Part shown: positions 1,661 through 55,285 of the stretch, in pieces
How the letters are laid out: each line of letters begins with the position of its first letter
How positions within the stretch are numbered: the first letter of the stretch is position 1
IMG/VR virus record: IMGVR_UViG_3300015374_000001
Span: 30,197-94,196 of that record
Length of the DNA: 64,000 nt
Origin: a virus
Reading direction: 5' to 3' (one strand)
Made by a program: the position numbers and the translations under genes
The notes under the pieces: generated by a model
The model's input: the letters and a program-made list of their open reading frames with translations, nothing else
The model's database searches: none
Told to the model about the DNA's origin: nothing

Positions 1661-2364
1661 GTACAGTAATTCTCACAGACACGCTCGAACGCATGCTGCG
1701 TGAAATGCAGAAGGAAATCGATGAGCTTAAACGTGGTGCTGCCATACCTGTTGGCGCAGAGATGCGTTGGCCGCGTTTAATCGATCAAAGCGGAAACATA
1801 AATGAAAACACAGCTAATCGTCCGCCTGATGGATGGTTAGAGAGAAATGGCGACACCCTCTCACGCACCACCTTTAATAGCTTATTTGCTGAGATTGGGA
1901 CAAGCCATGGCGCGGGTGATGGATCTACTACATTTGCTTTGCCTGGCGGGTGGAAAGATCTAACGCTAGGCACTAACTGGCGCAGGTTAAGTAATGATCC
2001 TATTTATCAGCCTCAATGCCTGAAGCTAGCTGACGGTTTAGTTTTATTGCGTGGGATTGTCGAGCGCACAAATTCTGTTTATACGCTGCCATCGACAATT
2101 TATACTTTACCAGCCGGATATCTGCCAGAGAAAAACTTCTTTATCTGGCGTGGTCACCAAGATACTGGCGCTAACTTTGCTCAGCTTCGTATGTTTATAA
2201 ATGCGACTACAGGGGTGGCGGTTATTGATCAAGAGCAAGGAACGAATAACAAGCAGTTCTTAGGATCAGGAGGTGCCGCAAATGGTTGCTTCTATTACTT
2301 GGATGGAACCATTTTCAAGGCATCAAATGCAGGGGCTCCTGAGACTACAATAATTAAAACCTAA
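1657..2364 (+). CDS. Tail collar domain protein
   Basis: 235 residues starting at ATG 1657, overlapping the previous stop by 4 bases. The N-terminus (LERMLREMQKEIDELKRG) is a short coiled coil. Residues about 35-100 carry a tail-collar signature: an entry motif PPDGWLERNGDTLSRTTF and the closing GDGSTTFALP. In this family the domain lies at the fibre or tail-tip base. The C-terminal half is beta-rich and unassigned, possibly a receptor-binding head. Co-transcribed with the Gp37-like gene, so a tail-tip component is the best reading. Confidence 0.75.
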   Translation: MSTVILTDTLERMLREMQKEIDELKRGAAIPVGAEMRWPRLIDQSGNINENTANRPPDGWLERNGDTLSRTTFNSLFAEIGTSHGAGDGSTTFALPGGWKDLTLGTNWRRLSNDPIYQPQCLKLADGLVLLRGIVERTNSVYTLPSTIYTLPAGYLPEKNFFIWRGHQDTGANFAQLRMFINATTGVAVIDQEQGTNNKQFLGSGGAANGCFYYLDGTIFKASNAGAPETTIIKT

Positions 2365-2639
2365 TGCCCGATCAGCCTTCGAGAAGAAGAAGCAAGAGCG
2401 CGCGGCGAAGTGATGCTGTTGTTGGATTTATTATCCCATTCTTCTTTATCACCATCGCTAGCTATCAGCAGGTGACTCAAGGCAAGATCGATAAATACGT
2501 ATTAGGCGCGCTGCTCGTGTTCGGATTAGGCGCATTGGGTTGGCGAATAGATGTTCTGTTTGAAAAATATCTAGAGGCGAAGGCTGCTTCTGTTCGGCCG
2601 CTTGAGAGGCGGGACGAGGAAGTGGAAGATGGAGCTTAG
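2364..2639 (+). CDS. Small membrane protein, two predicted membrane segments
   Basis: 91 residues. Its ATG shares the A of the preceding TAA, so it is translationally coupled. A basic N-terminus (RRRSKSARR) is followed by two hydrophobic stretches around residues 20-38 and 47-62, then an acidic tail. Size and topology fit a holin-like protein, but no family is recognised. It opens a run of consecutive membrane-protein genes reaching 4528. Confidence 0.6.
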   Translation: MPDQPSRRRSKSARRSDAVVGFIIPFFFITIASYQQVTQGKIDKYVLGALLVFGLGALGWRIDVLFEKYLEAKAASVRPLERRDEEVEDGA

Positions 2640-2742
2640 GCGAACATATCCATGGCTAATAAATTGGCTAAAAGATCATCCTTTCACGTGGGCCGGGTGG
2701 ATGCTGGGACTCCTGATCTACCTGTTGGTGATTCTGCCATGA
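2629..2742 (+). CDS. 37-residue membrane peptide gene
   Basis: ATG at 2629 follows a purine-rich ribosome site (gaggaagtgg) and overlaps the preceding gene by 11 bases. The peptide begins MELRRTYPWLINWLKDHP and ends in one hydrophobic helix (GLLIYLLVILP). Its TGA overlaps the ATG at 2739 as ATGA, the coupling used throughout this operon. This explains why the next gene should start at 2739 and not at the in-frame ATG 2652. Function unknown; a holin-like or accessory membrane peptide is possible. Confidence 0.6.
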   Translation: MELRRTYPWLINWLKDHPFTWAGWMLGLLIYLLVILP

Positions 2743-3056
2743 AAAGTAGTTGGATAGACAAAGGAGCAGAGTGGTGGGACAAACTGGGCAATATTCTTAA
2801 TAGGCGCCCAATTCAATTTATTCTGACTACTGTTGGAGTGATCGCAGTAGTCATTGCATTCACTATTTTGTTTACCAGAAGTATCGAGAACACAGCAACC
2901 CTGCATGAGATTCGTGAACAATTTTGTGCTGGCCCCAGGCCGATGACTGATATAGAAAATGAGAAGCGTTGTAATGAATTGTTTGACAAGCTTCTTGAAA
3001 CTCCGACCCATTCACAGCGGCAAAAGTTGAAGGAGCTAATAAAGTCAGGAGAATAA
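2739..3056 (+). CDS. Single-pass membrane protein with two outside cysteines
   Basis: 105 residues from ATG 2739, chosen because it overlaps the stop of the 37-residue gene (ATGA). One membrane helix lies near residues 25-45, followed by a helical domain with two cysteines (EQFCAGP and EKRCNELF) and a charged C-terminus. Topology suggests the C-terminal domain lies outside the membrane. It shares this plan with the next three genes. Family not recognised. Confidence 0.65.
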   Translation: MKSSWIDKGAEWWDKLGNILNRRPIQFILTTVGVIAVVIAFTILFTRSIENTATLHEIREQFCAGPRPMTDIENEKRCNELFDKLLETPTHSQRQKLKELIKSGE

Positions 3057-3458
3057 ATGATTTGGCCGTTAAAGCGTAGACACCGAGAAGACGATGTAAT
3101 AGATGATGTTGAATACGCGCTGCAAGAGGCGTGGTTATCTCGGCACGGTCTAACGCGCTTTGTCAGATTCATCCTGACGATATTGATTGCCTTTGTTTCG
3201 GTTACAGGATTTATTCAGACCAAAGAGCGCGACCGGTGTGAGCAGAGCAAAGCGTTCGTCGGTCTTTATGCCCAATTCCTTGAGCAGCAAGTCGAGTTCA
3301 GGAAGGAAGCCAATAAGAAGCTAGGGCCAAATGATCCTTTGCGTCCGACTGCTGAGGCTGCATTAAAGAATTACCAGACGCAACTTAAATTGCTTCATGA
3401 TTCTGGTGATATCAATTGTAATGATGAGTACCCGATTCTGCCGCTCATAGGTATTTAA
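3057..3458 (+). CDS. Single-pass membrane protein
   Basis: 133 residues; ATG directly follows the previous stop, with GGAG eight bases upstream. A charged N-terminal tail of about 35 residues precedes a helix (FVRFILTILIAFVSVTGFI). A helical outside domain follows, with cysteines in DRCEQSKAF and DINCNDEYP, ending PILPLIGI. It looks related to the next protein in the spacing of these cysteines and in the closing motif. Unknown function; a lysis or envelope role is inferred from position only. Confidence 0.65.
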   Translation: MIWPLKRRHREDDVIDDVEYALQEAWLSRHGLTRFVRFILTILIAFVSVTGFIQTKERDRCEQSKAFVGLYAQFLEQQVEFRKEANKKLGPNDPLRPTAEAALKNYQTQLKLLHDSGDINCNDEYPILPLIGI

Positions 3459-3820
3459 TGACTATTTCTACTCAACGCTTCATCTGGTGGGCCTCCGCAG
3501 TAATTCTGTCTGTGGTGATTGCTCTGATCATAGGTTCAGAAACGAACCGTGACAATCTAATCAACGGTTGTAAACGCAATGGTGATTTCAAAGCAACAGA
3601 AGCTCGCGCCTGGGAAGAGGCTGCGCGGGCTCGTACTAGGGAAGGTGAACTAGGCACAGCAGCAACTTATACGGCTACAGCTAGGCAAATTAGGTTAACA
3701 ATTCCAATGCCAAGTGACTGGACCGAAGAGAAAGACGGAAGGAGAGGTGAAGATCTAAATGTGGTAGACGAAGGGTGTCATGAAGCATTCCCTTCTGTTC
3801 TGCCTGGGATTTTAGATTAA
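3458..3820 (+). CDS. Single-pass membrane protein, likely paralogue of the preceding gene
   Basis: 120 residues, overlapping the previous stop (TAATG). An N-terminal helix (WWASAVILSVVIALIIGS) is followed by NRDNLINGCKRNGDF, an Ala/Arg/Glu-rich helix, and VVDEGCHEAFPSVLP. Two cysteines bracket a helical region and the tail ends with FPSVLP, echoing the preceding protein. No catalytic motif is visible. Confidence 0.65.
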   Translation: MTISTQRFIWWASAVILSVVIALIIGSETNRDNLINGCKRNGDFKATEARAWEEAARARTREGELGTAATYTATARQIRLTIPMPSDWTEEKDGRRGEDLNVVDEGCHEAFPSVLPGILD

Positions 3821-3823
3821 ATA

Positions 3824-4528
3824 ATGATGGATCGGGCCTCACATTTTTGGGTAACCGTTAAGGATCGCCCACTGGCCCTAATTGGCGCAATAATAGGACT
3901 TGCGATTTTCGTATTTGCAGTTGTAAATGTGGTGCAAATCAGAACCAAAGTGATCAAGGTAGAGCAATCATCGCCATGTCTCGGGCTAACCACCCGGCAA
4001 TGCGCGTTTAAGTTATTGGCTGCTCTGCCAGTCAAGGAGCGCCACCAGATAGAGCGCCAGTATCAGCAGGATATAAATAAAGAACTAGCTAAGCGACTGG
4101 TAGAGGATCGTCGTCAGCAATTAGCTAATCAGGATGGAGGCACCGGAGGGACAGGAGGAACCGGTGGTGGAACCGGAGGATCAGGCGGGCAAATTAATCC
4201 GCGAGGCGGTGATGGAGGGGGAGGAAACCTCACGCCGGGAACGCCGGGACAACCAAATCAACAAACGCCTAGCAATCCTAGTAACCCTACTGTTCCTCCT
4301 AACAGCAGGAACCCTAGTAATCCTAATAATCCTCCTAGCGTAGACGTTCCACCGGTAGACGTTCCTCCAATTAATTTACCACCGGTAGATGTTCCTCCGA
4401 TTCATGTTCCTCCAATCCAAGTGCCACGGCTAGTCCCACAAGTCCCCGACCAGAATTTACTCCCAAAAGTAGAAACTCCAAAGGTGTGCGTTGATATTGA
4501 TTTAGTTCAGCCAGGTCTACAATGTTAA
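3824..4528 (+). CDS. Membrane-anchored protein with Gly-rich and Pro-rich stalk
   Basis: 234 residues. A membrane helix lies at about residues 17-38 (LALIGAIIGLAIFVFAVV), then a cysteine pair (SPCLGLTTRQC), a charged helix, a Gly/Thr-rich repeat (about 105-135) and a long Pro-rich stalk built on VDVPPV/INLPPV/IHVPPI units (about 170-210). A C-terminal cysteine pair (VCVDIDL, GLQC) closes it. The design is that of a surface protein held away from the membrane. The DNA of both repeats is itself repetitive. Role unknown. Confidence 0.65.
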   Translation: MMDRASHFWVTVKDRPLALIGAIIGLAIFVFAVVNVVQIRTKVIKVEQSSPCLGLTTRQCAFKLLAALPVKERHQIERQYQQDINKELAKRLVEDRRQQLANQDGGTGGTGGTGGGTGGSGGQINPRGGDGGGGNLTPGTPGQPNQQTPSNPSNPTVPPNSRNPSNPNNPPSVDVPPVDVPPINLPPVDVPPIHVPPIQVPRLVPQVPDQNLLPKVETPKVCVDIDLVQPGLQC

Positions 4529-4648
4529 GTCTTGTTCCGGTGGTCCGCGCATCGGGACAGGTGCCGCTCCCCCGGAGGTTGCTCCCCATGGTTTCTTCGC
4601 CGCGCCGTGGGTCGATGCGCCTCCGGGGTTGAGCGCAAAAGGAGAGAG
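4529..4648 (+). other. Structured non-coding gap with a 9-bp inverted repeat
   Basis: About 120 bases between two genes. CCCCGGAGG at 4570-4578 pairs perfectly with CCTCCGGGG at 4620-4628, enclosing a GC-rich interior. An open frame starting at 4532 crosses it, but its low-complexity product and the good ribosome site at 4641 argue against coding. Confidence 0.4.
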
Positions 4649-4870
4649 ATGACACTTATTCCCACAAAAATTACGCCAAGCCGAGAGGCCAGGCATCTAT
4701 TTATGTCCATGGTAAATTATTCTGATGGTGGCTTAATTAACTTAACGAATACCTTGGCGTTAGCCACTGCCAGAAAATGCGCGGGCATGGACGATCACGA
4801 GGCCGTAGAAGAGCTATGCAGAGCCGGTTGGATAGAAGCTGGCGAAGACGGCGGCTGGCTGCTACACTGA
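4649..4870 (+). CDS. Small protein of unknown function
   Basis: 73 residues, starting at ATG 4649 behind GGAGAG (4641-4646). An in-frame ATG at 4532 exists, but its extra 39 residues are Arg/Cys-rich and overlie the inverted repeat. The protein is helical, with SREARHLFMSMVNYSDGG, and ends in a winged-helix-like stretch (EAVEELCRAGWIEAGEDGGWLL). DNA binding is a weak guess. Confidence 0.5.
   Translation: MTLIPTKITPSREARHLFMSMVNYSDGGLINLTNTLALATARKCAGMDDHEAVEELCRAGWIEAGEDGGWLLH
4863..4868 (+). promoter_or_regulatory. Extended -10 element (TGC TACACT)
   Basis: TGCTACACT overlaps the last codons of the preceding gene and is identical to the element at 8154-8162. A start site about 7 bases downstream would fall at the first base of the folded RNA at 4875. 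The -35 region is poor (TGGCGA at 17 bases). Confidence 0.45.
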
Positions 4871-4874
4871 CGCT

Positions 4875-5019
4875 GCGCTCAAGGTTCAAGCGATCAAACT
4901 ACCGGGGCGGTAGCGAGTCAAAGGGGATCTGAGCGCGTTCACATATCCGGCAGCTAATGACCATGACGCTGTTCGGAGGGTGACAAGGGGCGGTCCCAAA
5001 AAGGGCCGTCCTTTGTCTT
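4875..5019 (+). ncRNA. Predicted small RNA of about 145 nt
   Basis: The stretch has the parts of a self-contained RNA gene. An extended -10 lies just upstream. A closing stem pairs GCGCTCA (4875-4881) with TGAGCGC (4930-4936). An inner hairpin pairs CTACCG (4899-4904) with CGGTAG (4908-4913) around a GGG loop. An intrinsic terminator ends at 5019. No sensible reading frame is present. It could be an antisense regulator, a packaging or phage RNA, or a decoy. No known family was recognised. Confidence 0.45.
4987..5019 (+). terminator. Rho-independent terminator
   Basis: GGGCGG (4988-4993) and CCC (4995-4997) pair with GGG (5003-5005) and CCGTCC (5006-5011), with one bulged T, one G-U pair and an AAAAA loop. 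TTTGTCTT follows. It separates the membrane-protein operon from the helicase gene. Confidence 0.65.
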
Positions 5020-5021
5020 GG

Positions 5022-5050
5022 TGGACTAGTCACTGCCTATGAGCTATGAT
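5022..5050 (+). promoter_or_regulatory. Promoter for helicase gene (leaderless)
   Basis: TGGACT (5022-5027), a 17-base spacer and TATGAT (5045-5050). The predicted transcript start coincides with GTG 5057, so the message would have no leader. The competing ATG at 5039 would lie inside the promoter. Confidence 0.5.
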
Positions 5051-5056
5051 AGCGGC

Positions 5057-6544
5057 GTGAAGCGTGCGCGTGTGGTCGTGGACAGTCATCTTCGCTTGGG
5101 CGAAGACTTTTCTGTGCCATTTCATGAATTGTGCATGGAAGTGATGACGCTTGACAACGAGAAGCACTACAAAGCACGAGCGGCGAACCGCTGGGATTGG
5201 CAGAATATCCCTAAGACCATTTCTCTCTACAGTATTGAGGATGATCATTTAGTTATTCCTCGGGGCTTTGCGCTAAAGCTAAAGCAATGGCTGCGCGAGG
5301 ATTGGGATACACGGGTGCGCTGGATAGATCGCACAGTATGGGAAGAGGGTCCGCACTTTGGCGCAGAAGAGTTTGAATTCCGTAATCACCAGTTGGATGC
5401 TGCTGAAGCGTTTTGGAAGCACCGCCAGGGAATTTACAAATCACCTACTGGAAGCGGCAAGAGCGGTGCTGTTGCTGGATTCCTTTGGCTTCATCATCCT
5501 AAGCGTGCGATTGTTATGGTTGACCGTATTAATCTCGTAGATCAGTGGATTGCGGACTTTAAAAAATTATGTGGAGACAAACTAAACATTGGGGCAATTG
5601 GTTCCGGGCAGTGGTCCGAAGGCCAGGTGACTATAGCTACCGTGCAAACGCTGCACAAGCGGCGCGAGCACTTAAAGAAGGAAGGCTGGTTCAATCAATT
5701 CAGCGCGATGTTCTTGGACGAGAGCCATCACGCAACAGCACAGATGTATCGAGAGCTAGTGAGTCTGTTCCCGGCGAGGATCAGAATCGGCATGAGCGCC
5801 ACTCCTGACCAAACAGGGGATTTCGCCATAGCCCTAAACGTCCTTGGGCCGGTCTTCCATGAAGATACATACGACGAAATTAGAGAGGCCGGATTTATTC
5901 TCACCCCTAAGGTGAAAGTGATCCATACTCCATACCGCTTTAATTATTGGGGCGATCACACTGTTAAGGCAAATGAGGAATGTGATATCCCCAACTGCCC
6001 AAAGATCGGCACGCCTCACTCACACAAGAATAATTACGGGAAGCTTCGGGCAGATATCGTCCAAGATCTTGAGCGTAATAGGCTGATTGCCAGCACGATC
6101 ATGGAATGGCATGGCAAGCATCAACTTGTGGTCAGTTCAGAAACCAAGCATTTAGATGAAATGATTTCTGCGACGGTTGACCAGGGGCTTGCGATGGAAG
6201 ATTGCTTCAAGCTCACTGGCAATGATGCGCGCGGACGTAGAGCAGAGATTCGCAAAATGTTTGTGGAAGCGCCACAAGGCGTGTTGTTTTCTACGGTAGC
6301 TGGCGAGGCATTAAATATTCCTGAGATTGATTGTGCTCATCTGGCCTTCCCAACCAAGAATGCCAAGGCGACAGAGCAGAAATTAGGGCGTGCTGTGCGT
6401 ATTCATGAGGGTAAGCCTGGTGCAACTATCATCGATTATGCGGATACTCTTGTTCGAGTTTTAGCAAAACAGTTCAAATCGCGGAGGTGGAAATGTTATG
6501 AGCCACTAGGGTTAGAAGTAGAGATACTTGATTTCAGTAATTGA
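5057..6544 (+). CDS. Superfamily 2 DNA helicase (UvsW-like)
   Basis: 495 residues from GTG 5057 (501 if ATG 5039 is used). Motifs in order, in 501-residue numbering: FRNHQLDAAEAF (115-126), Walker A SPTGSGKS (135-142), DESH (227-230), SATP (253-256), and in the second RecA-like lobe LVVSSETKHL, GVLFSTVAGEALNIP and QKLGRAVR. This is the DEAD/DEAH branch-migration type that remodels forks and D-loops, as T4 UvsW does. The ATG choice would place the start within the -10 promoter element, so GTG is preferred. It stands alone between a terminator and the next promoter-less leader. Confidence 0.85.
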   Translation: MKRARVVVDSHLRLGEDFSVPFHELCMEVMTLDNEKHYKARAANRWDWQNIPKTISLYSIEDDHLVIPRGFALKLKQWLREDWDTRVRWIDRTVWEEGPHFGAEEFEFRNHQLDAAEAFWKHRQGIYKSPTGSGKSGAVAGFLWLHHPKRAIVMVDRINLVDQWIADFKKLCGDKLNIGAIGSGQWSEGQVTIATVQTLHKRREHLKKEGWFNQFSAMFLDESHHATAQMYRELVSLFPARIRIGMSATPDQTGDFAIALNVLGPVFHEDTYDEIREAGFILTPKVKVIHTPYRFNYWGDHTVKANEECDIPNCPKIGTPHSHKNNYGKLRADIVQDLERNRLIASTIMEWHGKHQLVVSSETKHLDEMISATVDQGLAMEDCFKLTGNDARGRRAEIRKMFVEAPQGVLFSTVAGEALNIPEIDCAHLAFPTKNAKATEQKLGRAVRIHEGKPGATIIDYADTLVRVLAKQFKSRRWKCYEPLGLEVEILDFSN

Positions 6545-12954: not shown

Positions 12955-13773
12955 TTGGCAAGAACAAGATCCCGCACAGAAAAGCCAGGCCGCACTTTAG
13001 GAAAAGTTGCACGTGCCAAAAAGCGCGTCGATAGCAAAATGAGCGGCGGCAAGAAATTTTTGACGATTGAAGACGGCGAAACTGTTGTCATGCGTTTTCT
13101 TGAAGAGGGCGAAGACTTCAAGGATGCATATGTGCATAACACGCCTTTCGAGCGCGACGATGGAAGTACGTATTATCTCGACGTTCCCTGTCTCGATCAG
13201 GATGAAAAAGGTGTGCCTTGCCCTGGCTGCCGCGACGAGCTAGATATTAGATATAAATTCTATGTCTGCGCTATCGTCCGTGATTATCCTGAAGTCGATG
13301 ACAACGGCAAGGTTCTTGATGAAAAAGATCAGGTTGTTGTCTGGACTGGTGGCGTCAAGGTTGGAGATAAATTAGCTAAGAAGCATTCTCGATATGGTCT
13401 TATGTCGCGGGATTGGGAAATCACCCGTGATGGCGTTAAGCTCAAGACCGAATATGAAATTGAGCCTGCCGGTGATGGCGCTGAGCCAATGTCGAAGGAA
13501 GACAAGCAACTGGCAGAAACAAAGCCTGATTTAACCTTCTATGTGAAGCCGCCAGAGTTCGAAGAGTTTTATGTCTCTCCGAAGGATCGCGGAGATGCCA
13601 AAGCAGTAGAGGAAGGCAAGAAAGCAAATCCATGGGGAGAGCGTAAAAAGTCTGGTGGGAAGACAAAAGCAAAATTCCGTAGTAGCCGTAGTAGCGGCGA
13701 GGATGGAGAAACAAAGGTGCGCTCCGGGCGAAAGCGCTCTAAAGGCACCACTAAAGTTCGTCGCCGCCGGTAG
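12955..13773 (+). CDS. Single-stranded DNA-binding protein-like (gp32-type)
   Basis: 272 residues from TTG 12955, eight bases after AGGAG. The core (about 30-190) resembles phage gp32-like SSBs: KKFLTIEDGETVVMRFLEEG, then a cysteine cluster CLDQDEKGVPCPGC (probable zinc) and KFYVCAIVRDY. Unlike usual SSBs, whose tails are acidic and recruit partners, this one ends in a long basic tail rich in Lys, Arg and Ser (GRKRSKGTTKVRRRR). It has its own strong promoter, fitting the large amounts such a protein needs. Confidence 0.65.
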   Translation: MARTRSRTEKPGRTLGKVARAKKRVDSKMSGGKKFLTIEDGETVVMRFLEEGEDFKDAYVHNTPFERDDGSTYYLDVPCLDQDEKGVPCPGCRDELDIRYKFYVCAIVRDYPEVDDNGKVLDEKDQVVVWTGGVKVGDKLAKKHSRYGLMSRDWEITRDGVKLKTEYEIEPAGDGAEPMSKEDKQLAETKPDLTFYVKPPEFEEFYVSPKDRGDAKAVEEGKKANPWGERKKSGGKTKAKFRSSRSSGEDGETKVRSGRKRSKGTTKVRRRR

Positions 13774-13808
13774 GCGACAGGGCATTTAACCAGCAAAGGA
13801 GGTACATA

Positions 13809-14318
13809 ATGCCTATTTATAAAATCTATGTCGCCGATGACGACGAAAACCTTGAGTCTTTAGGTGAGGTTGACGCGGCGGATAGCGCTGAGGCCCTTGA
13901 AGGGTTTCTTGATGCAGCGACAGAGCAAGGTGTGGAAGTTGACTACGAAGCTGGATTTGAAGTAATTGAGGAATCCAGCATCGAGCATGTTGATGTTGAG
14001 GAAGAGCCACAGCCGCCCAAGCTGATTGTTAGCGTGGGTAGCGCGGCTGCTAAGCCGAAGCGTGGCCGTCCGAAGGGTTCTGGCCGTAAGCCTGGTCGGC
14101 CTAAGAAGGAAACGGCTGAGGAAGCTCCGAAGCGGCGTGGTCGCCCACCGGGTAGCGGTAAGAAGCGCGGTCCCGGTCGCCCCAAGGGTTCGACTAATAA
14201 AAAGACCACCACAAAGTCAGCGCCTAAAAAGAGCGGGCGTGGGCCGGGTCGCCCGAAGGGGAGCAAGAACAAAACCCGTAAGTCTCCGTTCAAGGGCGGC
14301 GGCTCGGACGACGAGTAA
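13809..14318 (+). CDS. AT-hook DNA-binding protein
   Basis: 169 residues, with an ideal ribosome site AAAGGAGGT (13796-13804). The first 75 residues are acidic and possibly a small alpha/beta fold. The rest holds about five AT-hook cores: KRGRPKGSG, KPGRPKK, RRGRPPGSG, GPGRPKGST and GPGRPKGSK. AT-hooks insert Arg-Pro into the minor groove of AT-rich DNA. Next to the SSB-like gene, so origin binding or genome compaction is likely. Confidence 0.8.
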   Translation: MPIYKIYVADDDENLESLGEVDAADSAEALEGFLDAATEQGVEVDYEAGFEVIEESSIEHVDVEEEPQPPKLIVSVGSAAAKPKRGRPKGSGRKPGRPKKETAEEAPKRRGRPPGSGKKRGPGRPKGSTNKKTTTKSAPKKSGRGPGRPKGSKNKTRKSPFKGGGSDDE

Positions 14319-14345
14319 TAAATAAACTCGTGCCCGAGGAAGGAT

Positions 14346-14380
14346 GGGGATCGGTTTCGGCCGGTCCCCGTTCTACTTTC
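14346..14380 (+). terminator. Hairpin, possible partial terminator
   Basis: GGGGATCGG (14346-14354) pairs with CCGGTCCCC (14361-14369) with one G-U around TTTCGG, followed by GTTCTACTTTC. The U-tract is weak, so it may attenuate rather than stop transcription. The next gene has a perfect ribosome site right after it. Confidence 0.5.
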
Positions 14381-14393
14381 AAAGGAGGTTTTT

Positions 14394-14780
14394 ATGGATC
14401 GTAACGAGTTTGAAGATTTTGTTGAAGGCCACTATCAGGATATTATGGGCCTGAATAAAACTAAAGGCCATGAATATGCCGGTGATGAAGACGCTCTTGC
14501 TAACTTCAAAGAAGTGGCTAAGGAACATGGTATTACCCCCGAACAGGCTTGGGGCGTTTATACATCAAAACACTGGAAGGCGATCCAGAGTTTTATCCGT
14601 GAAGGCCAGGTTCACAGTGAGCCGATTGAGGGACGAATCCAAGATGTGATTCTTTATTGTTTCCTTCTGCTTGGTTTAATTGAAGATGGCACCATTGAAG
14701 TTGAAGAAGAACGCATCACAGGAGCAGAAGAGGTGACCCGCGAGTTTACTCCATTGACACCACTCTCTGAGAACAACTAA
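14394..14780 (+). CDS. Nucleotide-modification-associated (DUF1599-like) helical protein
   Basis: 128 residues behind AAAGGAGG. The sequence pattern KTKGHEYAGDEDALANFKEVA, then KHWKAIQSFI and IEGRIQDVILYCFLLLGLI, is that of small all-helical phage proteins grouped with the nucleotide modification associated and MazG-like families. Acidic residues on the helices could bind a metal and an NTP. Hydrolysis of a nucleotide is inferred. Confidence 0.55.
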   Translation: MDRNEFEDFVEGHYQDIMGLNKTKGHEYAGDEDALANFKEVAKEHGITPEQAWGVYTSKHWKAIQSFIREGQVHSEPIEGRIQDVILYCFLLLGLIEDGTIEVEEERITGAEEVTREFTPLTPLSENN

Positions 14781-15052
14781 TGCCCAAGCAAGAAGAATTA
14801 GTTAGCAATGCGCCTTTGCGCGAGGCATTCGAGAACAGCGGTATGAGAGCTTATGATTTAGCTATTGCGATTGACTGGCGCAAAGGACCAAAGAGGAAGC
14901 CAGATACTCAGCGCGTACAGAGAGTTCTAGGCTTAGCTCCGTATTACAATTCCTACAACAGCAGGAAGGCATTTGCTAAATCACTTACGATTGACAATGC
15001 CATTAAAATAGGGTCTGTTCTGAATCTCGATCCAGTGGATATCGGAGTATGA
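14780..15052 (+). CDS. Small helix-turn-helix-like protein
   Basis: 90 residues, coupled by TAATG. The pattern LREAFENSGMRAYDLAIAIDW...DTQRVQRVLG and ending TIDNAIKIGSVLNLDPVDIGV resembles an XRE/Cro-type DNA-binding domain with an insertion between helices. Probably a small regulator. Confidence 0.55.
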   Translation: MPKQEELVSNAPLREAFENSGMRAYDLAIAIDWRKGPKRKPDTQRVQRVLGLAPYYNSYNSRKAFAKSLTIDNAIKIGSVLNLDPVDIGV

Positions 15053-15270
15053 GCGACGAGAAAGCATATGAAGAAAAATTGCCGACGCCTGGTACCTGGC
15101 CAGAGTGCGAGGTAGGTCAGTGGTACAGGGTTCTCCATGAATGGGATAAAGGAAAAGTAGGTAATTGCATCAGCACTAGCGAGACACTCTTTGGCCATCG
15201 CCATGCTCGCTTGAGGTTCAAGGATGGCCACGAGCGAGGTTTCCGCACACATGATTTGCAGTTAGTTTAA
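15049..15270 (+). CDS. Small protein, unknown
   Basis: 73 residues, ATGA coupling with the gene before and TAATG with the polymerase after. Compact beta-rich look (GQWYRVLHEWDKGKVGNCIS, HARLRFKDGHERGFRTHDLQ), like a small barrel domain. Function not recognised. Confidence 0.5.
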   Translation: MSDEKAYEEKLPTPGTWPECEVGQWYRVLHEWDKGKVGNCISTSETLFGHRHARLRFKDGHERGFRTHDLQLV

Positions 15271-18200
15271 TGGGTCTAGCTCACCTTCATAAACACTCGG
15301 AATTTTCATCCATTGATGGGACCGGCAACGCTAATCAATATACCAAGCAAGGCTATAAATTCGAGCAAGAATTTATGGCTATTACCGACCATGGTAGATT
15401 GGGCGGCGTATTGGATCATGTCTACGTTTGTCAGAATCCTGATAAGTTTGACGATCCAGACGACCCGACTAAGAAGCGCGGTAAAGACGAAAAGTTAATA
15501 CCGCTGCTCGGGATGGAAGCGTACTGGCGCGATAACCGCTTTCAGGAACAGAAGAGTTACAGCAGTGCAAATCATTTAACTCTGATCGCTGGCAGTCTCC
15601 GTGGTTGGCGGACATTGATGCGTCTATCGAGCAAGGCGTGGATTCCTATCGACCGCAAGGGCGGCTTCAAGGGCAAACCCTGCATCGATTGGGAAATGCT
15701 AGAGGCAGACCACGAGGATTTAATTGTTTGTTCTGGCTGTTTCGCTAGTCCACTTTCTCAATTAATCCTGGCCGGTGATCAATCAGGCGCAGATGAGTAT
15801 TGCTCACGCATGCAGAACCTTCTAGGTGATCGCTTTTGGGGCGAGATAATGCCTCACGATCTAGATGAGCAGCGTTCAATCAATGAAGGCGTAATAAACT
15901 TATCTCAGGAGCATGGCTTTGGCGTCGTCGCAACAGGTGATGTGCATATTCCGTATCAAGAGTGGGAAGATACGGCGCTTGTGCTCAAGATGGTCAGCAC
16001 AAAACAGACGCTCTCCAAGCGCGCCAAAAAGCAAGAGGCTGGCGAAGACGTATACGGAGAGCGGATCGACACCATTTACTTAAGCCCGGAAGACGAGTTC
16101 CGCGAGCAGTTTGCTGAGTACCACGAGGATATCGATGAGGATATTGTCGATGAGGCGATAGCAAATACTGAAGTGTTGGCTCGCTCAGTCAAGCATTTTG
16201 TTATCAGTAATGCCACTAAGCTGCCCAAGGTAGCTAAGACTTCACTAGATGCAGAGCGTATCGTCAAGCGTTGGTGCAAAGAGAGTCAATACCCAACGGG
16301 CAAGCCAAAGAATTGGCAGGAATATCGTGACCGATACAACTATGAATTCAAAGTGCTCCGAGACAAAGGTGTGTTGGACTATTTCATCTTGGTCGGAGAT
16401 ATGGTCCGCTGGGCAAAGAGCAGAGATGCGTTACCCGGTTCTGACAAGCGTAAGCGGCCTATCCGGGTGGGTCTTGGAAGAGGTTCTGCGGCAGGGTGTC
16501 TTATCTCGTATCTCATCGGCATCACCGCAATTGATCCAATTGCCTGGGGTCTGTTGTTTGAGAGGTTTCTGAATCCTGATCGTGTCGGGATGCCGGATAT
16601 TGATCTTGACTTCGAGACTGACTTAAATGATTTCGAAACTCTCGACGGCAAAATGGTGGACGGCCGCGAGATGGTCAAGGAATATCTCAAGGCCAAGTAT
16701 GGTGACGATCACGTAGCGGATATCATTGCCTATCAGACCTTCGCTCCGCGCGTGACAATCAAAGAGGTTGCAGCTACACAGGATCTTCCTTATGGATTCA
16801 TCAAAAAAGTCACAGATTCAATCGGAGATACAGAGCGCGATCTTGAAAAGATTGCAGCAGAAAATGGATTGGTTCGTAAACTCAAGACAGAACACCCCTA
16901 CGTATGGGAACAGTGCTTACGGCTCGAAGATCAAATACTCCGAGATACCCGACATGCAGGCGGCGTGCTCATTACCCCCCGGCCAACAAATGAGTATATG
17001 CCTACTCAGATCGGAAATGATGAGATTACAACAGTCACAGCATGGGCGGATCGTGCCGATTTCCAAATTATCAGTGATTACGGATTTGTAAAGATTGACG
17101 TACTCGGTGTCAAGGGATTAGCGAAGCAGCAACTATGCGTAGATTTAATTGCTGATCACTATGGCGACATAGTTGAACCGAATGATCTACCGGCTCTGCG
17201 CGATCCATACAACGCAGATCAAAAAGCGCTAGACGCATTTACTCAAGGATTGACTCTAGGTGTCTTCCAGTTCTCCGGGCGAGGGATCACAAATCTCCTG
17301 CGCCACATCAAACCAGACAGCACCATCGACATTGCCGTTGCTAATGCCCTTTATCGGCCTGGCCCTATTAAAATTGCATTTGAATATGGGGATCGAAAGA
17401 ACGGGAAGATACCCGAGGCCGATTGGTATTGGCACGATGCCGTCGAGCCCATCTTAAAAGAAACCTGTGGCCTGATTGCCTTCCAAGAGCAGGTTATGGA
17501 AATTACTAAGGTCATCGGTAATTTCACGGGTGGGCAAGCAGACTCAATGCGTAAGGCAATCTCGAAGCTCTACCGGCTCCCTGGTGACCAGGCACGAGCA
17601 TTCATGCAGGGCTTCAAGGATCAATGGTTAGAGGGGTGTGAATCAAATGGCTTGGACGAAACCGCTGCCGGGGTTATCTGGGATGCCATCCTTGAATTCG
17701 CCGGATACGGATTCAACAAATCCCACAGCGCCAGCTACGCCTTGCAGGCATATCAGGATATGTGGCTCAAAGTTAATTATCCCCTTGCGTTTTATGCGGC
17801 CACTCTTACCATCGAACGAAAAGCAAAAGCCGAAGAGGATGCCGAATGGAAGCGAGGGATCTTCCGCGAAGCAGAATTATTCGACGTAAAGATTGATCCG
17901 CCCGATGTAAATGCCAGCGAGCGCGGATTCATTATCGATGGCGACCGGCTGCGTTATGGACTAGTCAGCGTCAAGGGCTTAGGAGGATTGACAGTTGATC
18001 AAGTCAAAGAGGTACGTCCAGTCTCTTCATTTGATGATTTTGCTAGGCGTACCCCAAGCAACTTCGGAGCCGATAATGCCGCCGCACTTGTTAAAGCTGG
18101 CGCATTCGATTCCCTTGGAGAAGATCGGGAAGCGTTACTAGCCAAGACTCGGCGCTGGGCAAAGAACAAATACAACGTGGTGATGGCGTGCGGGTGTAAG

Positions 18201-46120: not shown

Positions 46121-49100
46121 ATGCTCGCTGCTCAGACCATCCGTAGGCGCAAAACCAGGCCGGGGGTTATTGGCCCTGGTGGTCTTGCTATGCCTCGTGG
46201 GCCAACTGGCTCGCGCCACGGATTAGATGCACTTGGATCTGATGGCGGTATCCCCGCCATGGTCACGCCTACGTATGGATCGACGGCAGCGACTAGTTTT
46301 ACTCCCTGCGCAGAAGCAGCAGATTTCCTAGATTCTTTAGGAATTAATGTCCATCCTACGTACACGGGTCTGTCTTCAGAAACACAGCAGCAGACCGCGA
46401 TTGACAGAATCAAAGAGCTTGGATTCCGTCACGTTAGAGGATTAGGTTTATTTAATCCATCTTGGAAGGCTGATGAATTTGAGCACCAGTGGTCGCAATT
46501 TTGGTTGATCAATTGCATCAATGCCACTAAGACAAGACAGAAATTTACTGGTGGCCCTGCCGGTGTAGGCGAACAACCAATCTTCAATCTCATCGGGTTG
46601 GACGAGCGTGAGTATTTCACTAATGCAAATGCTTGGGCTGCACCTCAAGCAGCGTATGAAATATTCGATGCTGATGGTGGTGAGCCCTTCTACCGCGCAC
46701 TCGATGGCCCGCCTGCTCGGGTAGCATCCTCGGGAACCAACTACACTGGAAACTTCTATTCAATAAATAAAGGGGTTGTACCGACCGATCCTCCGATTGG
46801 TTGGAGCGGGGTTAGTTCTCTATCTGGTCCAAATGAACCAGAAGGAAGAAATACTCGTTTAGGGGCAGGGGCGCTTAGCTCGGGCGATGTTTTCTATGGC
46901 GATACGCTTGAGAGTCTTACGCCTTCTACAGATAGAAAAACTGGTGGTCGAGGGATTCGTTGGCTGCATCGCCAGCATCAATTAAAGCGTCAGTCTCAAG
47001 CTGACACGGTTATATTAAATGGCGAAGAGTACATAGACTTCAACACAGGCCGCATCAATCGTGAGCCCGCTACGATGCGCCAGCTTCCAATTCAGCCATT
47101 TGGTCATTTTGTTGGTGGCGGTCCTCCAAACAGCGGTTGGCAAAAAGGTGGCGACTACACCGATGCCGATTATGTTTCGTTCCATACCTATTGGTCGGGT
47201 ACCTGCCCGATGTGGGATTTCAATTGGGGCAATCCTACTGATCAGCAATGGCCCAACCCAAGTGCATCGGCCAGCTTTGGTTGGATGCACAATGCCGATG
47301 TGATCAATGGAATAAATCGTGGTGATACGATTAGATTTAAATTCCATTCGACACCGATATGGCAGACCGAAGCAGGTTGGTATCAATATCCATCTGCACC
47401 CGCGATCAGTGCAGGCCAGTATTGCCCACCGCATATCTCAGGCGAATACCTGATTCAGAATGTGGTGATGAATTACTTGCAGGGTTGCAAGCGCACCTTC
47501 GTCTATAAATTAACTGACGAAGGTGGTGACAATGCAGCCGGTAGCGGCCCGCCTGCCATGGGGCTCTGTCGCACAGACTTCACGAAAAAAGAATCCTTCC
47601 ATGCGATGAAGAACCTCGCGGGTATCGTGCGCTGGCGACAGGGAGGCCAGGACGGCGATCCTCCGCAATTCATACAGATCCCTCACAACTTCACGCCTGG
47701 TCAGGCCGAATTCGCTGATGACTTAACCAATGGAAATCAGACGCCTGACATTTGCTACAAGCTGGTGCTGCGTACAGGCACCAACCAGTATTTAATTATT
47801 ATATGTCGGCCACGGCAGCTTTGGTCGCGCCAGAAGTGGCAGCAGAGCAAGCAAGCCGGTAATACTGATGCGGTTGCAGAAGCAGCGGGCGCTCGTGTTC
47901 CTAATAAAACCGGCGATGTAACTAATGTAACGCTGACTCTACCTGCACCGCCCACGGGATATCACTGGGAAACCGGCGTATGCGAGCCAGCCAAGAATCC
48001 GATCCGCGATCCTAGCGATGGCCAGTTTTATGCAAATGCTAACAATGGCCAAGCATTCGCACCGCCAGGCGTAACCAATAACGGATTTACTCAAAGCAAC
48101 AATATCCTGACGCTGCGTGTATGCGGACTGACGCGCGCTGTTTCTGCTCAGCTTGTTCCTGATGCGCCGACCGGCGTTACTTCTGGCATAACGGCGACTA
48201 CGGATCGCACCAAGACTTCACAAGCCGCTCAATCAATTGGCGCGGACTTGGTGAGAATCAATTATGACATTGCCACGGTGCCGACTACGATGGATGCAGA
48301 TTTCCTTGCATACACGCCGCTCGGTGTTCGTGTTTTGCCGGTGGCCACATTCACCGGTCGTACTCCGACCACGACTGAAGCTCAGAACCTTGCCAATTGG
48401 GTAAATAGATTCGGGCCAGGTGGATCATTTTGGGCTGCGCATCCTGAGCTTCAGGCATCGTTCGCAATTAAACATATTGAGTTTGGTGATGACACCTCTT
48501 ACAACTACCAATATGGAGATGTTGAAGCTACCCCAGGTGCGGGTGACTGGTGGAACTCCACCACCTATCAGACGAGGGCAGCTAATTACGCTACCCGCTT
48601 CCGTGAAGCTCACATTGCCGTTCAAGCTACCGGCCGTGCAGTCGGATTACTTTGCATAGGTGAGGATGGCGGTTCCGCTGATCCTATGTGGGTTAATAAA
48701 TTATTTGATACGGTCACCGATATAGCTAGTCGTGTTGCTGGTTGGTCTACCAAGGGATTTAGCCCACAGTGGGAAGGCAAGATCGACCGCCTCGTTACTT
48801 TTACCGGCAACCGTGGAGCGGCGGCGACTATTCCAATTGATATTACGTCACTCGGGCAAGCCACAGACAACGGCAACGTGCTCAATGACAATATTTCTTG
48901 GCCACCGGATCAGACCTACGCTCAAGCAGCTTCGGCAATTGATGGGACAATTAGCACAGCGCTGGCTAAGCCTAACCTAGCCTCGCGTCTTCGTTACTTC
49001 ATAATTCGTCAAGCTCATGACCTGACAGCACCGGGCGCGAACAATGTACGCGATAACTACTTCGGCGTATTAACTAACACTCTTGGGGAGAAGGCCGAAT

Positions 49101-51205
49101 ACTCAGCTAGAATTCGTGAGCAATTCGGTGGAACTCCCCCACCACCTCCGCCGCCCCCGCCGCCAACGACTTTGCCAATTGTGGTGCCGTCGTCTGGCTC
49201 GACTGCTGCGGCGCTACGTACTGGCTCGACTACCGGGCCACGCTTGCACCTCAGGGGAGTAAATGTTTGGGGAACGCAAGACTCGATCACCACGAGCTTC
49301 GGTGCTGCTCAGTATCAGAACCGGACCAACATTTGTGCAACTATTAAATCGTGGGGCGCAAACTGTGTTCGCTTCAGGTTTCTTGCTTCCGATTGGAATA
49401 AAGCACCGATACCTGCTACTGGCCAATTAACTAAAGCGCAGATCATCGCTCAGATCAAGGACTGGCGCGATGCAGTAACAGCGCGGGGTATGTATTTCAT
49501 CCCGTGCTCGTGGGATGCACTCGATGGTGATTTTGATGATGTGGATTGGCCAGGCAATGCCTTCCGCTATCACCAGATGTTCACGGATATCAAGAATGCC
49601 CTCGGAAATGATCCGATGGTTATGTACGAGCCGACCAACGAGCCTAACCTAGTCGGTTATCTCGGTGGCAACGGCCATGATGCAAATGCATGGAATGCCT
49701 GGGACACGAATATGCGGTCCACCATCCTGCATTTCCGTGAGACATTAAATTACAAGGGCGTTCTGATCATCGATCCGCTGTGGTGGGCCAACTCTGGTGG
49801 CGGCGGTGAAGGTTACGATGATGCTCGCTACACAGCGCTTGAGAATTATGATGCTGCTCGCGCTGGTATGAATGGCATTCATCAATTAGTATTTGCCAAA
49901 CACGACTATGCGAACGGTGCAACCAGTTTCAATCAGGCAGCTTGGATCGCTGGTGCCGGGGCAAACCAGATCAAGCATCTCATTTGGGAAAATGAATTCG
50001 GCAACTACAACGGCTCGCCTTCAACTGTCAATGCAACTTGGTCTGATCAAGCAGCCACCTTCTTTGGTGCGCGATTTAATACACAGCAGAACTTCTGCGG
50101 CGGTTGCGCGTTCTTGTGGGGACCGTGGTTCGATGCTAATGCACTCACGGCATCAAATAACGTCACGCCTACAAATCCATGGGGCGAGACTGTTAGAACA
50201 AAATTCTTTGGCGGCGCAGTTACTCCACCGTCTACAGGATTCAGGCCGGGTGTAGTCGGCAATGCAGCCGATGGAAACGATATACCGGCAGGCCAGAGCC
50301 TTAATGCTAAAGTAATTAGGCTTGAGTGGGGCATCGGTACTGCTGCTACATCAATAGATGGTTCAATAATTGCTGCTGCTCAGCGCGGGCTCAGAGTCCT
50401 GATGTTGGCTGGGTTCTCTGGATTTATTCCATCGGTTGCTCAAGCTCAGAACCTAGCTACGTGGGCTAGTCGCTTTGGTGCCGGTGGAGCTTTCTGGCAG
50501 GCGCATCCTGAATTAAATGCGAACCTCGCTGTCACTGATATCGAATTCGGTAATGAGACTTCATTTAGTTATCAGTATGGCAACCAAGCTCCTGATCCTG
50601 CCTATCGTCAGCGTGCCTCTGATTATGCCTCGCGTTGGAAGAGCGCTTACGATGCGATCCAGGCCACGGGTCGGCCGGTGAGATTACTTTGCCAGGCTGA
50701 TCATGGCGGCAGTGGCTTGCCTGATTGGGTTAATTTTATGTTCAATGCTGTTCCTAACCTCGGCCAATTAAGTCAAGGTTGGGTTGTTCATCCGTATGGA
50801 CCTAACTGGAAAAGCAAGACCGATCTTTTGGTTAGTCAAACAGCGGCTCGTGGAGCGCCGAACAATATCCCTATTGACATTACTGAATGGGGTATTGCAA
50901 GCGACAACGGTGGCAAGGTCTACCAGGGCGGGCGGGAAGATAACTATGGCTACGGAACCGCGCTCACCTACCAGCAGTGTGCTGATTTAATTTTGCCTGC
51001 TGTGAATGCGATGCGTAATGATCCCAACATAGGATTCAGGATCAGGCATTGGCTCTGGTATCGAGCACACGATACGCAGCCACCAGGGCGAAGCAATAAC
51101 CCCGGCGTGGATAGCCGAGAGATATACTTCGGAGCATTGAAGAGCGATAATACGGAAAAGGGCAATATCGGTGCTCGCATCCGTGATGTAATGGCAATGA
51201 CCTAA
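46121..51205 (+). CDS. 1694-residue multi-domain glycosidase
   Basis: A modular virion-type enzyme, four domains. Domain A (about 55-560) is a clan GH-A, GH39-like barrel with acid/base E239 (SGPNEPEG) and nucleophile E417 (WQTEAGW). Domain B1 (about 685-1000) is similar in design to B2 but has IEFGDDTSY (D791) and IDITSLGQ (S910) where B2 has IEFGNETSF (E1479) and IDITEWG (E1589), so B1 appears inactive. A poly-Pro linker (about 1006-1016) leads to domain C (about 1040-1360), a GH5-like cellulase with E1174 (YEPTNEPN) and E1292 (WENEFG). B2 (about 1374-1694) completes it. Probable function is cutting or binding a host surface glycan. Confidence 0.75.
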   Translation: MLAAQTIRRRKTRPGVIGPGGLAMPRGPTGSRHGLDALGSDGGIPAMVTPTYGSTAATSFTPCAEAADFLDSLGINVHPTYTGLSSETQQQTAIDRIKELGFRHVRGLGLFNPSWKADEFEHQWSQFWLINCINATKTRQKFTGGPAGVGEQPIFNLIGLDEREYFTNANAWAAPQAAYEIFDADGGEPFYRALDGPPARVASSGTNYTGNFYSINKGVVPTDPPIGWSGVSSLSGPNEPEGRNTRLGAGALSSGDVFYGDTLESLTPSTDRKTGGRGIRWLHRQHQLKRQSQADTVILNGEEYIDFNTGRINREPATMRQLPIQPFGHFVGGGPPNSGWQKGGDYTDADYVSFHTYWSGTCPMWDFNWGNPTDQQWPNPSASASFGWMHNADVINGINRGDTIRFKFHSTPIWQTEAGWYQYPSAPAISAGQYCPPHISGEYLIQNVVMNYLQGCKRTFVYKLTDEGGDNAAGSGPPAMGLCRTDFTKKESFHAMKNLAGIVRWRQGGQDGDPPQFIQIPHNFTPGQAEFADDLTNGNQTPDICYKLVLRTGTNQYLIIICRPRQLWSRQKWQQSKQAGNTDAVAEAAGARVPNKTGDVTNVTLTLPAPPTGYHWETGVCEPAKNPIRDPSDGQFYANANNGQAFAPPGVTNNGFTQSNNILTLRVCGLTRAVSAQLVPDAPTGVTSGITATTDRTKTSQAAQSIGADLVRINYDIATVPTTMDADFLAYTPLGVRVLPVATFTGRTPTTTEAQNLANWVNRFGPGGSFWAAHPELQASFAIKHIEFGDDTSYNYQYGDVEATPGAGDWWNSTTYQTRAANYATRFREAHIAVQATGRAVGLLCIGEDGGSADPMWVNKLFDTVTDIASRVAGWSTKGFSPQWEGKIDRLVTFTGNRGAAATIPIDITSLGQATDNGNVLNDNISWPPDQTYAQAASAIDGTISTALAKPNLASRLRYFIIRQAHDLTAPGANNVRDNYFGVLTNTLGEKAEYSARIREQFGGTPPPPPPPPPPTTLPIVVPSSGSTAAALRTGSTTGPRLHLRGVNVWGTQDSITTSFGAAQYQNRTNICATIKSWGANCVRFRFLASDWNKAPIPATGQLTKAQIIAQIKDWRDAVTARGMYFIPCSWDALDGDFDDVDWPGNAFRYHQMFTDIKNALGNDPMVMYEPTNEPNLVGYLGGNGHDANAWNAWDTNMRSTILHFRETLNYKGVLIIDPLWWANSGGGGEGYDDARYTALENYDAARAGMNGIHQLVFAKHDYANGATSFNQAAWIAGAGANQIKHLIWENEFGNYNGSPSTVNATWSDQAATFFGARFNTQQNFCGGCAFLWGPWFDANALTASNNVTPTNPWGETVRTKFFGGAVTPPSTGFRPGVVGNAADGNDIPAGQSLNAKVIRLEWGIGTAATSIDGSIIAAAQRGLRVLMLAGFSGFIPSVAQAQNLATWASRFGAGGAFWQAHPELNANLAVTDIEFGNETSFSYQYGNQAPDPAYRQRASDYASRWKSAYDAIQATGRPVRLLCQADHGGSGLPDWVNFMFNAVPNLGQLSQGWVVHPYGPNWKSKTDLLVSQTAARGAPNNIPIDITEWGIASDNGGKVYQGGREDNYGYGTALTYQQCADLILPAVNAMRNDPNIGFRIRHWLWYRAHDTQPPGRSNNPGVDSREIYFGALKSDNTEKGNIGARIRDVMAMT

Positions 51206-51686: not shown

Positions 51687-52514
51687 ATGGGTATTCCCGC
51701 ATTTCTCTGGTTCCTGCTCCAAGGAGCACCTGGCAATATATCCGGGGCGGGAAGCATCCCGTCTGCGGAGGCATTCGGCTCCCCAACTGTTGTAAGGAAT
51801 CCCCCTGCGCTTGGTCTGCTGCCCTCGCAGACTCTTTACCCTGACCCAAATCTTCAGCCACAGGGACCGGTAGCCCTTACAACTATTCAGGCTACCGCGA
51901 TTCCAAGTGCTGAGGCATTTGGTAATGCGACAATAATTGCTGGGCCGAAGCAGATCCTTGATGCTGGTGGTATTCCATCGGCCGAGGCATTCGGTACACC
52001 GTCTGTTGGCGGGACAATTACTGGCGCTGGTGGAATTGGTTCTTCTGAAGCATTTGGTACGCCGGTCGTTTTGCGGACAGCTACCGGTGTTGGTGGAATT
52101 CCATCTGCCGAAGCATTTGGTAATCCGATTGTTGGCCGTGGTGCATTCGTAACTATTGCCGGTGCAGGCGGGATCGCATCCGCAGAAGCATTTGGCAATG
52201 CCAAGATAAACTTAATAATCAGGGTAATCGGGATTGCTTCTGCGGAAGCGTTTGGTGCATCTACTGTCCGTGGCCTGATAAGTATCCGGCGCTCGGTCTA
52301 CCCGACGCAAGCTTATGAACTCTCTGCTCGGGCATCAGGCGCTATTGCAGATGAGATACTTAAGGGAGGGTTCGATGCCTTCCATGGCACAGGCGTAGAC
52401 GCAGATGAAATACTTAAAACTGGTCTTGTCGTCGAACACAATAAGGGCGGGATTGTTGATGAGCCTATGACCGACGGCGATGCTGACTACTTTACCGGGG
52501 CTGTAGAAGTCTAA
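51687..52514 (+). CDS. Repeat protein with (P)SAEAFG units
   Basis: 275 residues. Seven copies of a unit based on GGIPSAEAFG.P.V occur from about residue 20 to 195. The end is a non-repeat domain. Similar repeats are found in phage tail and fibre proteins. A structural stalk or spacer is likely. Confidence 0.65.
   Translation: MGIPAFLWFLLQGAPGNISGAGSIPSAEAFGSPTVVRNPPALGLLPSQTLYPDPNLQPQGPVALTTIQATAIPSAEAFGNATIIAGPKQILDAGGIPSAEAFGTPSVGGTITGAGGIGSSEAFGTPVVLRTATGVGGIPSAEAFGNPIVGRGAFVTIAGAGGIASAEAFGNAKINLIIRVIGIASAEAFGASTVRGLISIRRSVYPTQAYELSARASGAIADEILKGGFDAFHGTGVDADEILKTGLVVEHNKGGIVDEPMTDGDADYFTGAVEV
51741..52272 (+). repeat. Seven-copy degenerate tandem repeat
   Basis: Coding repeat, units of roughly 60 to 110 bases centred on ggcattTggt-type codons for SAEAFG. 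The nucleotide sequence varies while the peptide is kept, so the repeats are old and under protein-level selection. Confidence 0.6.
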
Positions 52515-54627: not shown

Positions 54628-54809
54628 TGATTCCTATCAATGCGGAAGTCACACTTGCATTAATTACGCAGCTTTACGGTGAAGCCCTTGGTGCATCTAA
54701 GCGTGTCGAAGAGCTTGAGCGTGAGATTAAAGAACTCAAGGCGCAATTAAATGGTCATAAGGATGAGCATCAGCCAGCACCCATGCCAGGGGTGACGCCA
54801 GTTAAATGA
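54627..54809 (+). CDS. Short coiled-coil protein, cassette copy 2
   Basis: 60 residues from ATG 54627 (TAATG overlap; the 54576 frame start is inside the fibre gene). A heptad-rich helix (GASKRVEELEREIKELKAQL) precedes a Pro-rich tail. Same place and design as the 42272 gene. Confidence 0.6.
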   Translation: MIPINAEVTLALITQLYGEALGASKRVEELEREIKELKAQLNGHKDEHQPAPMPGVTPVK

Positions 54810-55285
54810 GCACCCGTGATCGCGCACAATTTCTTGGACCAACTGCGCTTGAGAAATTACCTGATGCATTTATAAAAATACAAAGGCGTAAATTCAAGCT
54901 CACTCTCTACAAACGCGCAGGTAGAGAATTTGATATACAGCCATGGGTATGCCGGATAGCGGTAGGCGCTATTAAATTTGACACACCGGCTAAGCCCTAT
55001 CTCGTGCTCGGCAAGGAATCCCCGCCGACCTACACAGCGCCGAATTCGCAATGGGCTCTCGACGCAGGATTCAAGCCTGGTGAGAAGTTGCCACACGATC
55101 ACCCCGCAAATCCATTAAGGGGAGCTTTCCTCTGGCTAGATGACCACGGGATAGGCATCCATGGAACTCCAAATTTGCTGAGCCTCGGCACACGAGCTAG
55201 CCACGGCTGCATCAGAGTCAGCGAAGAGGATGCAATCTATCTTTACAACAACGTCCCGCTAGGCACCAACGTTTTAGTTATTTAA
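54806..55285 (+). CDS. L,D-transpeptidase (YkuD)
   Basis: 159 residues. The catalytic motif IHGTPNLLSLGTRASHGCIRV has H119, H133 and the nucleophile C135, the classic YkuD signature HXXX...SHGC. Such enzymes join or modify peptidoglycan peptides with L,D bonds. No signal peptide is seen, so it may ride on the virion or act inside. Unusual for a phage. Confidence 0.8.
   Translation: MSTRDRAQFLGPTALEKLPDAFIKIQRRKFKLTLYKRAGREFDIQPWVCRIAVGAIKFDTPAKPYLVLGKESPPTYTAPNSQWALDAGFKPGEKLPHDHPANPLRGAFLWLDDHGIGIHGTPNLLSLGTRASHGCIRVSEEDAIYLYNNVPLGTNVLVI

Follow-up and report, generated by a model that had tools for sequence, protein, structure and literature searches.

A very probable pseudoglycosidase domain in a phage protein with four glycosidase-like domains

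The window analysed here, 64,000 nucleotides long, covers positions 30,197 to 94,196 of the single metagenomic virus record IMGVR_UViG_3300015374_000001 (IMG/VR). An open reading frame (ORF) with an ATG start at 46121–51205 on its plus strand encodes a protein of 1694 amino acids, with the domain order A, B1, proline-rich linker, C and B2. Domain B1 is predicted to form a barrel related to that of B2 and lacks the catalytic residues of their shared family; in all likelihood it is a pseudoglycosidase forming part of a phage enzyme that depolymerises polysaccharide. Catalytic death of B1 is highly likely, and the gene probably encodes a depolymerase-type phage protein in which B1 has been kept as a non-catalytic module beside presumably active A, C and B2.

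Domain B is present twice

Judged from sequence, the protein combines three families resembling clan A of the glycoside hydrolases (GH-A) that share no sequence kinship with one another: A; B, which occurs twice; and C, a member of GH5. The limits of B1 (residues 684–1003; 48170–49129, plus strand) and B2 (residues 1371–1692; 50231–51196, plus strand) were set with the family profile, and their assignments draw also on alignment, together with the structural model for B1 and the codons for B2. Residues 702–1000 of B1 align with residues 1390–1689 of B2 with a score of 604, against a maximum of 57 in 300 shuffles, and with 126/290 identities (about 43%); no other pair of domains within the protein aligned above chance in the same shuffle test. 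An earlier note, made from the DNA alone, had described this reading frame and the alignment of the two copies along their length, and had placed D791 and S910 in B1 opposite E1479 and E1589 in B2. All of this is borne out, the four residues lying exactly at those positions.

Loss of catalytic residues in B1

Active enzymes of clan GH-A carry two glutamates, the acid/base after strand 4 and the nucleophile after strand 7. With strand places taken from the B1 model, both are present in B2 and in 33 relatives, and both are missing from B1. The family Asn-Glu after strand 4 is replaced by D790-D791 (48488–48493), the near-invariant HPYG at strand 6 by K878-G879-F880-S881 (48752–48763), and the nucleophile after strand 7 by S910 (48848–48850); alignment and codons agree on all of these plus-strand replacements, and the model on the first and last. 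The intact residues of B2 are N1478-E1479 (50552–50557), HPYG (residues 1557–1560) and E1589 (50885–50887), on the same strand. Glutamate, histidine and glutamate are retained in 34/34 other B domains (B2 and 33 domains from bacteria and another virus; a few rows of this count are partial or distant), and B1 alone has Asp, Lys and Ser. In an alignment of B1, B2 and further members, with 23 other members set against B1, B2 retains 36 of the 37 columns conserved at 95% or more and B1 retains 24, its losses including the Asn and Glu after strand 4, HPYG and the Glu after strand 7. By its sequence, B1 would thus qualify as a pseudoglycosidase, a relative of glycosidases that lacks their catalytic residues.

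The codons are D790 GAT, D791 GAC and S910 TCA in B1, and N1478 AAT, E1479 GAG and E1589 GAA in B2. The change from Glu to Ser at position 910 takes two base changes, and the replacement of HPYG by KGFS takes further independent ones, which is more than one error in sequencing could account for. An assembly or sequencing artefact, which the dependence on one metagenomic record would allow, has a negligible probability, since B1 differs at seven or more near-invariant positions, each a separate change, and its reading frame is otherwise normal.

The AlphaFold model of B1 has a mean predicted local distance difference test score (pLDDT) of 93.7 and a predicted template modelling score (pTM) of 0.92, with eight strands in the order of a (β/α)8, or triosephosphate isomerase (TIM), barrel. 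D790-D791 directly follows strand 4 and S910 lies at the end of strand 7, the places expected for clan GH-A. Foldseek searches with the model returned mostly clan GH-A families (template modelling (TM) scores of about 0.5–0.66), none near enough to name a family; the closest solved folds include GH26, GH17, GH53, GH1, GH10, GH5 and GH164, and the best-matching viral proteins are phage GH5 proteins. The barrel fold of domain B is supported for B1 by the model and these Protein Data Bank (PDB) matches, and for B2 by its 43% identity to B1. The acids that B1 retains on its catalytic face (E787, E848, D849, D916 and D967) are residues common in intact members, and no new acid that could substitute for S910 after strand 7 was found among the face acids in the predicted structure and alignment. 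The claim that B1 had lost its catalytic acids is therefore upheld, no replacement glutamate being found at strand 7. B1 would be unable to run the two-glutamate mechanism, having lost the acid/base, the nucleophile and most motifs of the pocket around them.

Adjacent Asp pairs act in substrate-assisted cleavage in GH84, and substrate-assisted glycosidase families need no enzyme nucleophile. It is conceivable on this ground that B1 has remained an enzyme but works by an altered mechanism, such as substrate-assisted cleavage by D790-D791, as the change from Asn-Glu to Asp-Asp occurred in the very copy that lost the nucleophile. We regard this as very improbable, since HPYG was lost as well and the nearest folds among the matches listed are clan GH-A families rather than GH84. 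The more specific proposal, that B1 is a new substrate-assisted glycosidase which adopted an Asp-Asp pair and dropped its nucleophile in a clan GH-A-like barrel beside an intact relative, is marginally less probable again.

Constraint on the B1 scaffold

The catalytic face and the rest of the domain were compared by identity to the three nearest bacterial (Thermoleophilaceae) copies, for B1, B2 and the intact B domain of a second viral contig, L008. Outside the face, identity is 43–46% for B1, 45–47% for B2 and 44–46% for L008-B; on the face it is 38–44%, 53–61% and 61–66%, respectively. Branch lengths in the tree are 0.91 (B1), 0.85 (B2) and 0.83 (L008). B1 has thus apparently evolved like a folded, selected domain with a pocket freed from family constraint. 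As its off-face identity equals that of the intact copies, B1 has not simply decayed. Recent inactivation followed by neutral drift would fit with the single known copy of B1 and with B2 being able to supply the function; it is nonetheless improbable, in view of the off-face identity, a branch close to those of B2 and L008, 320 codons without stops and a confident model. A kept pseudoenzyme is preferred over a decaying copy mainly because off-face identity and branch lengths match those of the intact copies.

What the kept domain does can be stated with less confidence. B1 most likely serves to place the active barrels on the polymer, binding through an outer cleft or its surface, or to keep domain C at its proper distance; that it binds glycan is a tentative proposal, with a chance slightly under even. 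The earlier note had proposed a repurposed substrate-holding domain. Its retention as a non-catalytic module agrees with the constraint on the scaffold, but the pocket motifs changed as a set, so that binding at another site, or a role in structural spacing, is more likely than a hold of the old pocket on the original substrate. That B1 serves purely as a spacer between A and C and binds no ligand is an unlikely though appreciable alternative: the scaffold has been preserved, whereas the catalytic face of B1 shows no more conservation than the remainder of the domain, B1 stands before C in an order also seen in L008, and a proline-rich linker (residues about 1005–1020, recognized in the sequence; 49133–49180, plus strand) follows it. 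On the other hand, a 320-residue barrel is a costly spacer, and the residues at the lost catalytic positions are polar or charged (DD, K and S), compatible with a remodelled site.

Several observations weigh against a kept non-catalytic module in a tail-associated depolymerase. Remodelling of the pocket (loss of Asn, HPYG and the two acids) does so insofar as simple substrate holding is meant. All 7/7 chosen motif positions are lost in B1 (p = 0.0005), in a test that is post hoc, and a Fisher test of the face against the rest within B1 alone is not significant (p = 0.17). B1 is known from one sequence only. The 66.5 kb contig L045 (IMGVR_UViG_3300015373_000003), whose portal is 100% identical to that of the window and which probably represents this phage or one almost identical to it, gave no B-family match; it apparently stops short of the glycosidase gene. 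The 1694-residue protein yielded no recognizable tail-attachment domain, the location in the virion being proposed from gene order.

The B family and its bacterial relatives

B appears to be an uncharacterised GH-A-like family, apparently an unnamed glycosidase family, found mainly in Thermoleophilia bacteria. B1 and B2 matched no family in Pfam or NCBIfam, the whole protein had no match in PHROG, and the B profile gave only chance matches, none significant, against PDB sequences; some bacterial relatives match PF00150, only below the cutoff. Scanning one genome per species gave five B relatives with 43–48% identity; the records of four carry the label Thermoleophilia/Solirubrobacterales or that of kin, and the fifth is labelled Bifidobacterium breve. 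This last record (L007, CAMCUD010000001.1) has a length of 5.0 Mb and B proteins that cluster tightly with Solirubrobacterales copies, and its label looks wrong. A class-wide search detected the family in 13/399 genomes, and a phylum-wide sample in 2/396, both already among the class-search genomes. The bacterial relatives are mostly secreted-looking and carry IEFGNETS, HPYG and a TE motif. One of them (L004) adjoins an O-antigen-ligase-type protein and glycosyltransferases, a neighbourhood that fits polysaccharide work. In two Solirubrobacterales genomes (L076 and L077), neighbouring B-family genes lie close together, with all catalytic residues intact.

Origin of the two copies

The 51 kb viral contig L008, which carries an integrase and a DUF5131 gene, encodes an 833-residue protein with a lipoprotein-like signal, an FN3-like part, the intact B and then C, the last 66% identical to C of the window. 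After YQYG, L008-B and B1 have an insertion in common, which is missing from B2. A Thermoleophilaceae metagenome-assembled genome (MAG) has B and C as separate lipoprotein-like proteins with similar N-terminal parts, its GH5 protein being the sole C relative found there. Because of the B–C order in L008, the shared YQYG insertion and the B and C proteins of the MAG, B1–C looks like the older pair and B2 and A like additions; the catalytic loss in B1 looks to have arisen in a lineage with a relative in which the site survived.

B1 is 44–46% and B2 49–51% identical to the nearest Thermoleophilia proteins, and the two are only about 42–43% identical to each other. Tree tests rejected none of the clades B1+B2, B1+L008 and B2+L008, so the trees do not decide between duplication and separate acquisition. 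Of the earlier description of B1 and B2 as a duplicated domain with a dead twin, homology and the lack of catalytic residues in one copy stand; internal duplication is weakened and the twinship is loose, as each copy is nearer to bacterial proteins and the trees are compatible with alternatives.

Domains A and C

Domains A and C keep their catalytic acids, as B2 does and as had been proposed. Domain A (residues about 60–510; 46298–47650, plus strand) is GH-A-like and distantly related to secreted Solirubrobacterales proteins of a different family (E values of 1e-11 to 1e-14). Its N238-E239 and T416-E417 are invariant across 7 bacterial relatives; its AlphaFold model was of low confidence (pLDDT 39.6) and was not used. 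Domain C (residues 1029–1370; 49205–50230, plus strand) matches the Pfam Cellulase family PF00150 (E value 4.5e-10; 39.9 bits against a curated cutoff of 23.5), and its glutamates E1174 (TNEPN) and E1292 (ENEFG), in the GH5 motif positions, are conserved in L008 and in the MAG copy (L033).

Genomic setting and proposed role

The gene sits among putative tail genes, preceded by a 629-residue and a 124-residue ORF and closely followed by a minor-tail-type protein gene. The phage also has terminase, portal-like, endolysin and replication genes. At 51687–52514 of the window, a 275-residue protein with repeated IPSAEAFG-type motifs matches the phage minor tail family phrog_13352, and a YkuD L,D-transpeptidase domain protein (PF03734) is encoded at 54806–55285, downstream of the tail-side genes.

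The depolymerase-type protein would probably be carried on the tail or released with it. Relatives of its domain families are secreted Thermoleophilia proteins, and A, C and B2, which possess the residues needed to hydrolyse glycosides, probably degrade either an exopolysaccharide or a surface polysaccharide; we infer both the virion location and the polysaccharide target, and a role at the host surface is suggested by analogy. The source of the relatives suggests a host in Thermoleophilia, against which speaks the gap in G+C content between the phage (49%) and the loci of the bacterial relatives (about 70%).

Relatives of the phage recognized by their portal proteins (28–43% identity) include one that encodes a GH26 protein on the tail side of its genome, which is what would be expected if host-surface enzymes are exchangeable. 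In 13 related-phage records, several of them fragments, neither the B family nor the 629-residue protein encoded upstream was present; the positive control for B in this search worked. In the phage collection, the whole protein had no match and B2 gave only weak, chance-like ones; scans of viral contigs with single sequences of B2, A and C, and with alignments of B1+B2 and of A, returned nothing. In record L067 (IMGVR_UViG_3300046469_000011), the minus-strand stretches 6–5456 and 13545–15371 encode a 609-residue GH26 protein, a C1q/BclA_C fibre and a 1817-residue protein; the last, which lies further on from the other two, is Ser/Asp-rich and repetitive, with repeats like SDSFSISDS. A phage with a distant portal relative (L069) encodes a class II ribonucleotide reductase at 1154–4150 (plus strand).

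Comparison with known systems

Pseudoglycosidases are known from animals and a protozoan. The four domains of lactase-phlorizin hydrolase all belong to one family, a difference from the phage protein. Our literature search, in which full-text searching was limited, turned up no phage depolymerase or tailspike described as a pseudoenzyme or as having an inactive domain.

In α/β-klotho, inactive GH1-like repeats bind ligand, and chitinase-like proteins likewise use inactive glycosidase copies for binding (PMC7828330). Klotho shares with the phage protein glycosidase barrels in tandem, with non-catalytic ones serving as binding modules, a function that is conjectural for B1; it differs in that klothos are animal receptors of GH1, whereas here only one of four domains in a phage protein is very probably dead, and it belongs to another, apparently unnamed family. 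PgaB has tandem CE4-related domains, of which the C-terminal one is reported to be inactive and to bind polysaccharide (PMC7828330), and so also joins an active and an inactive related copy in one polysaccharide-processing protein, but it is a bacterial deacetylase of another enzyme class. Lactase-phlorizin hydrolase, with activities in domains III and IV of its four (PMC7658089), is likewise a four-domain glycosidase in which only some domains are active.

Erwinia phage S6 encodes gp095 (GH5) and gp094 (GH48) in a polymorphic genome region, with exopolysaccharide as its first receptor (PMC9544554). The two cases share phage glycosidases, a GH5 domain and a link to exopolysaccharide; in S6 the enzymes are two separate proteins, their catalytic residues are reported present, they are not known to include a dead barrel, and the hosts are gammaproteobacterial.

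The present protein offers a clean system for asking how phages convert an enzyme into a part that no longer cuts, because an intact relative lies in the same protein, an intact B precedes C in L008 and no other dead member was found in bacteria. Inactive glycosidase copies used for binding and phage GH5 enzymes acting on exopolysaccharide are already known; the novelty lies in a phage protein that unites four GH-A-like domains from three families, one domain being very probably dead, and in the apparently unnamed B family.
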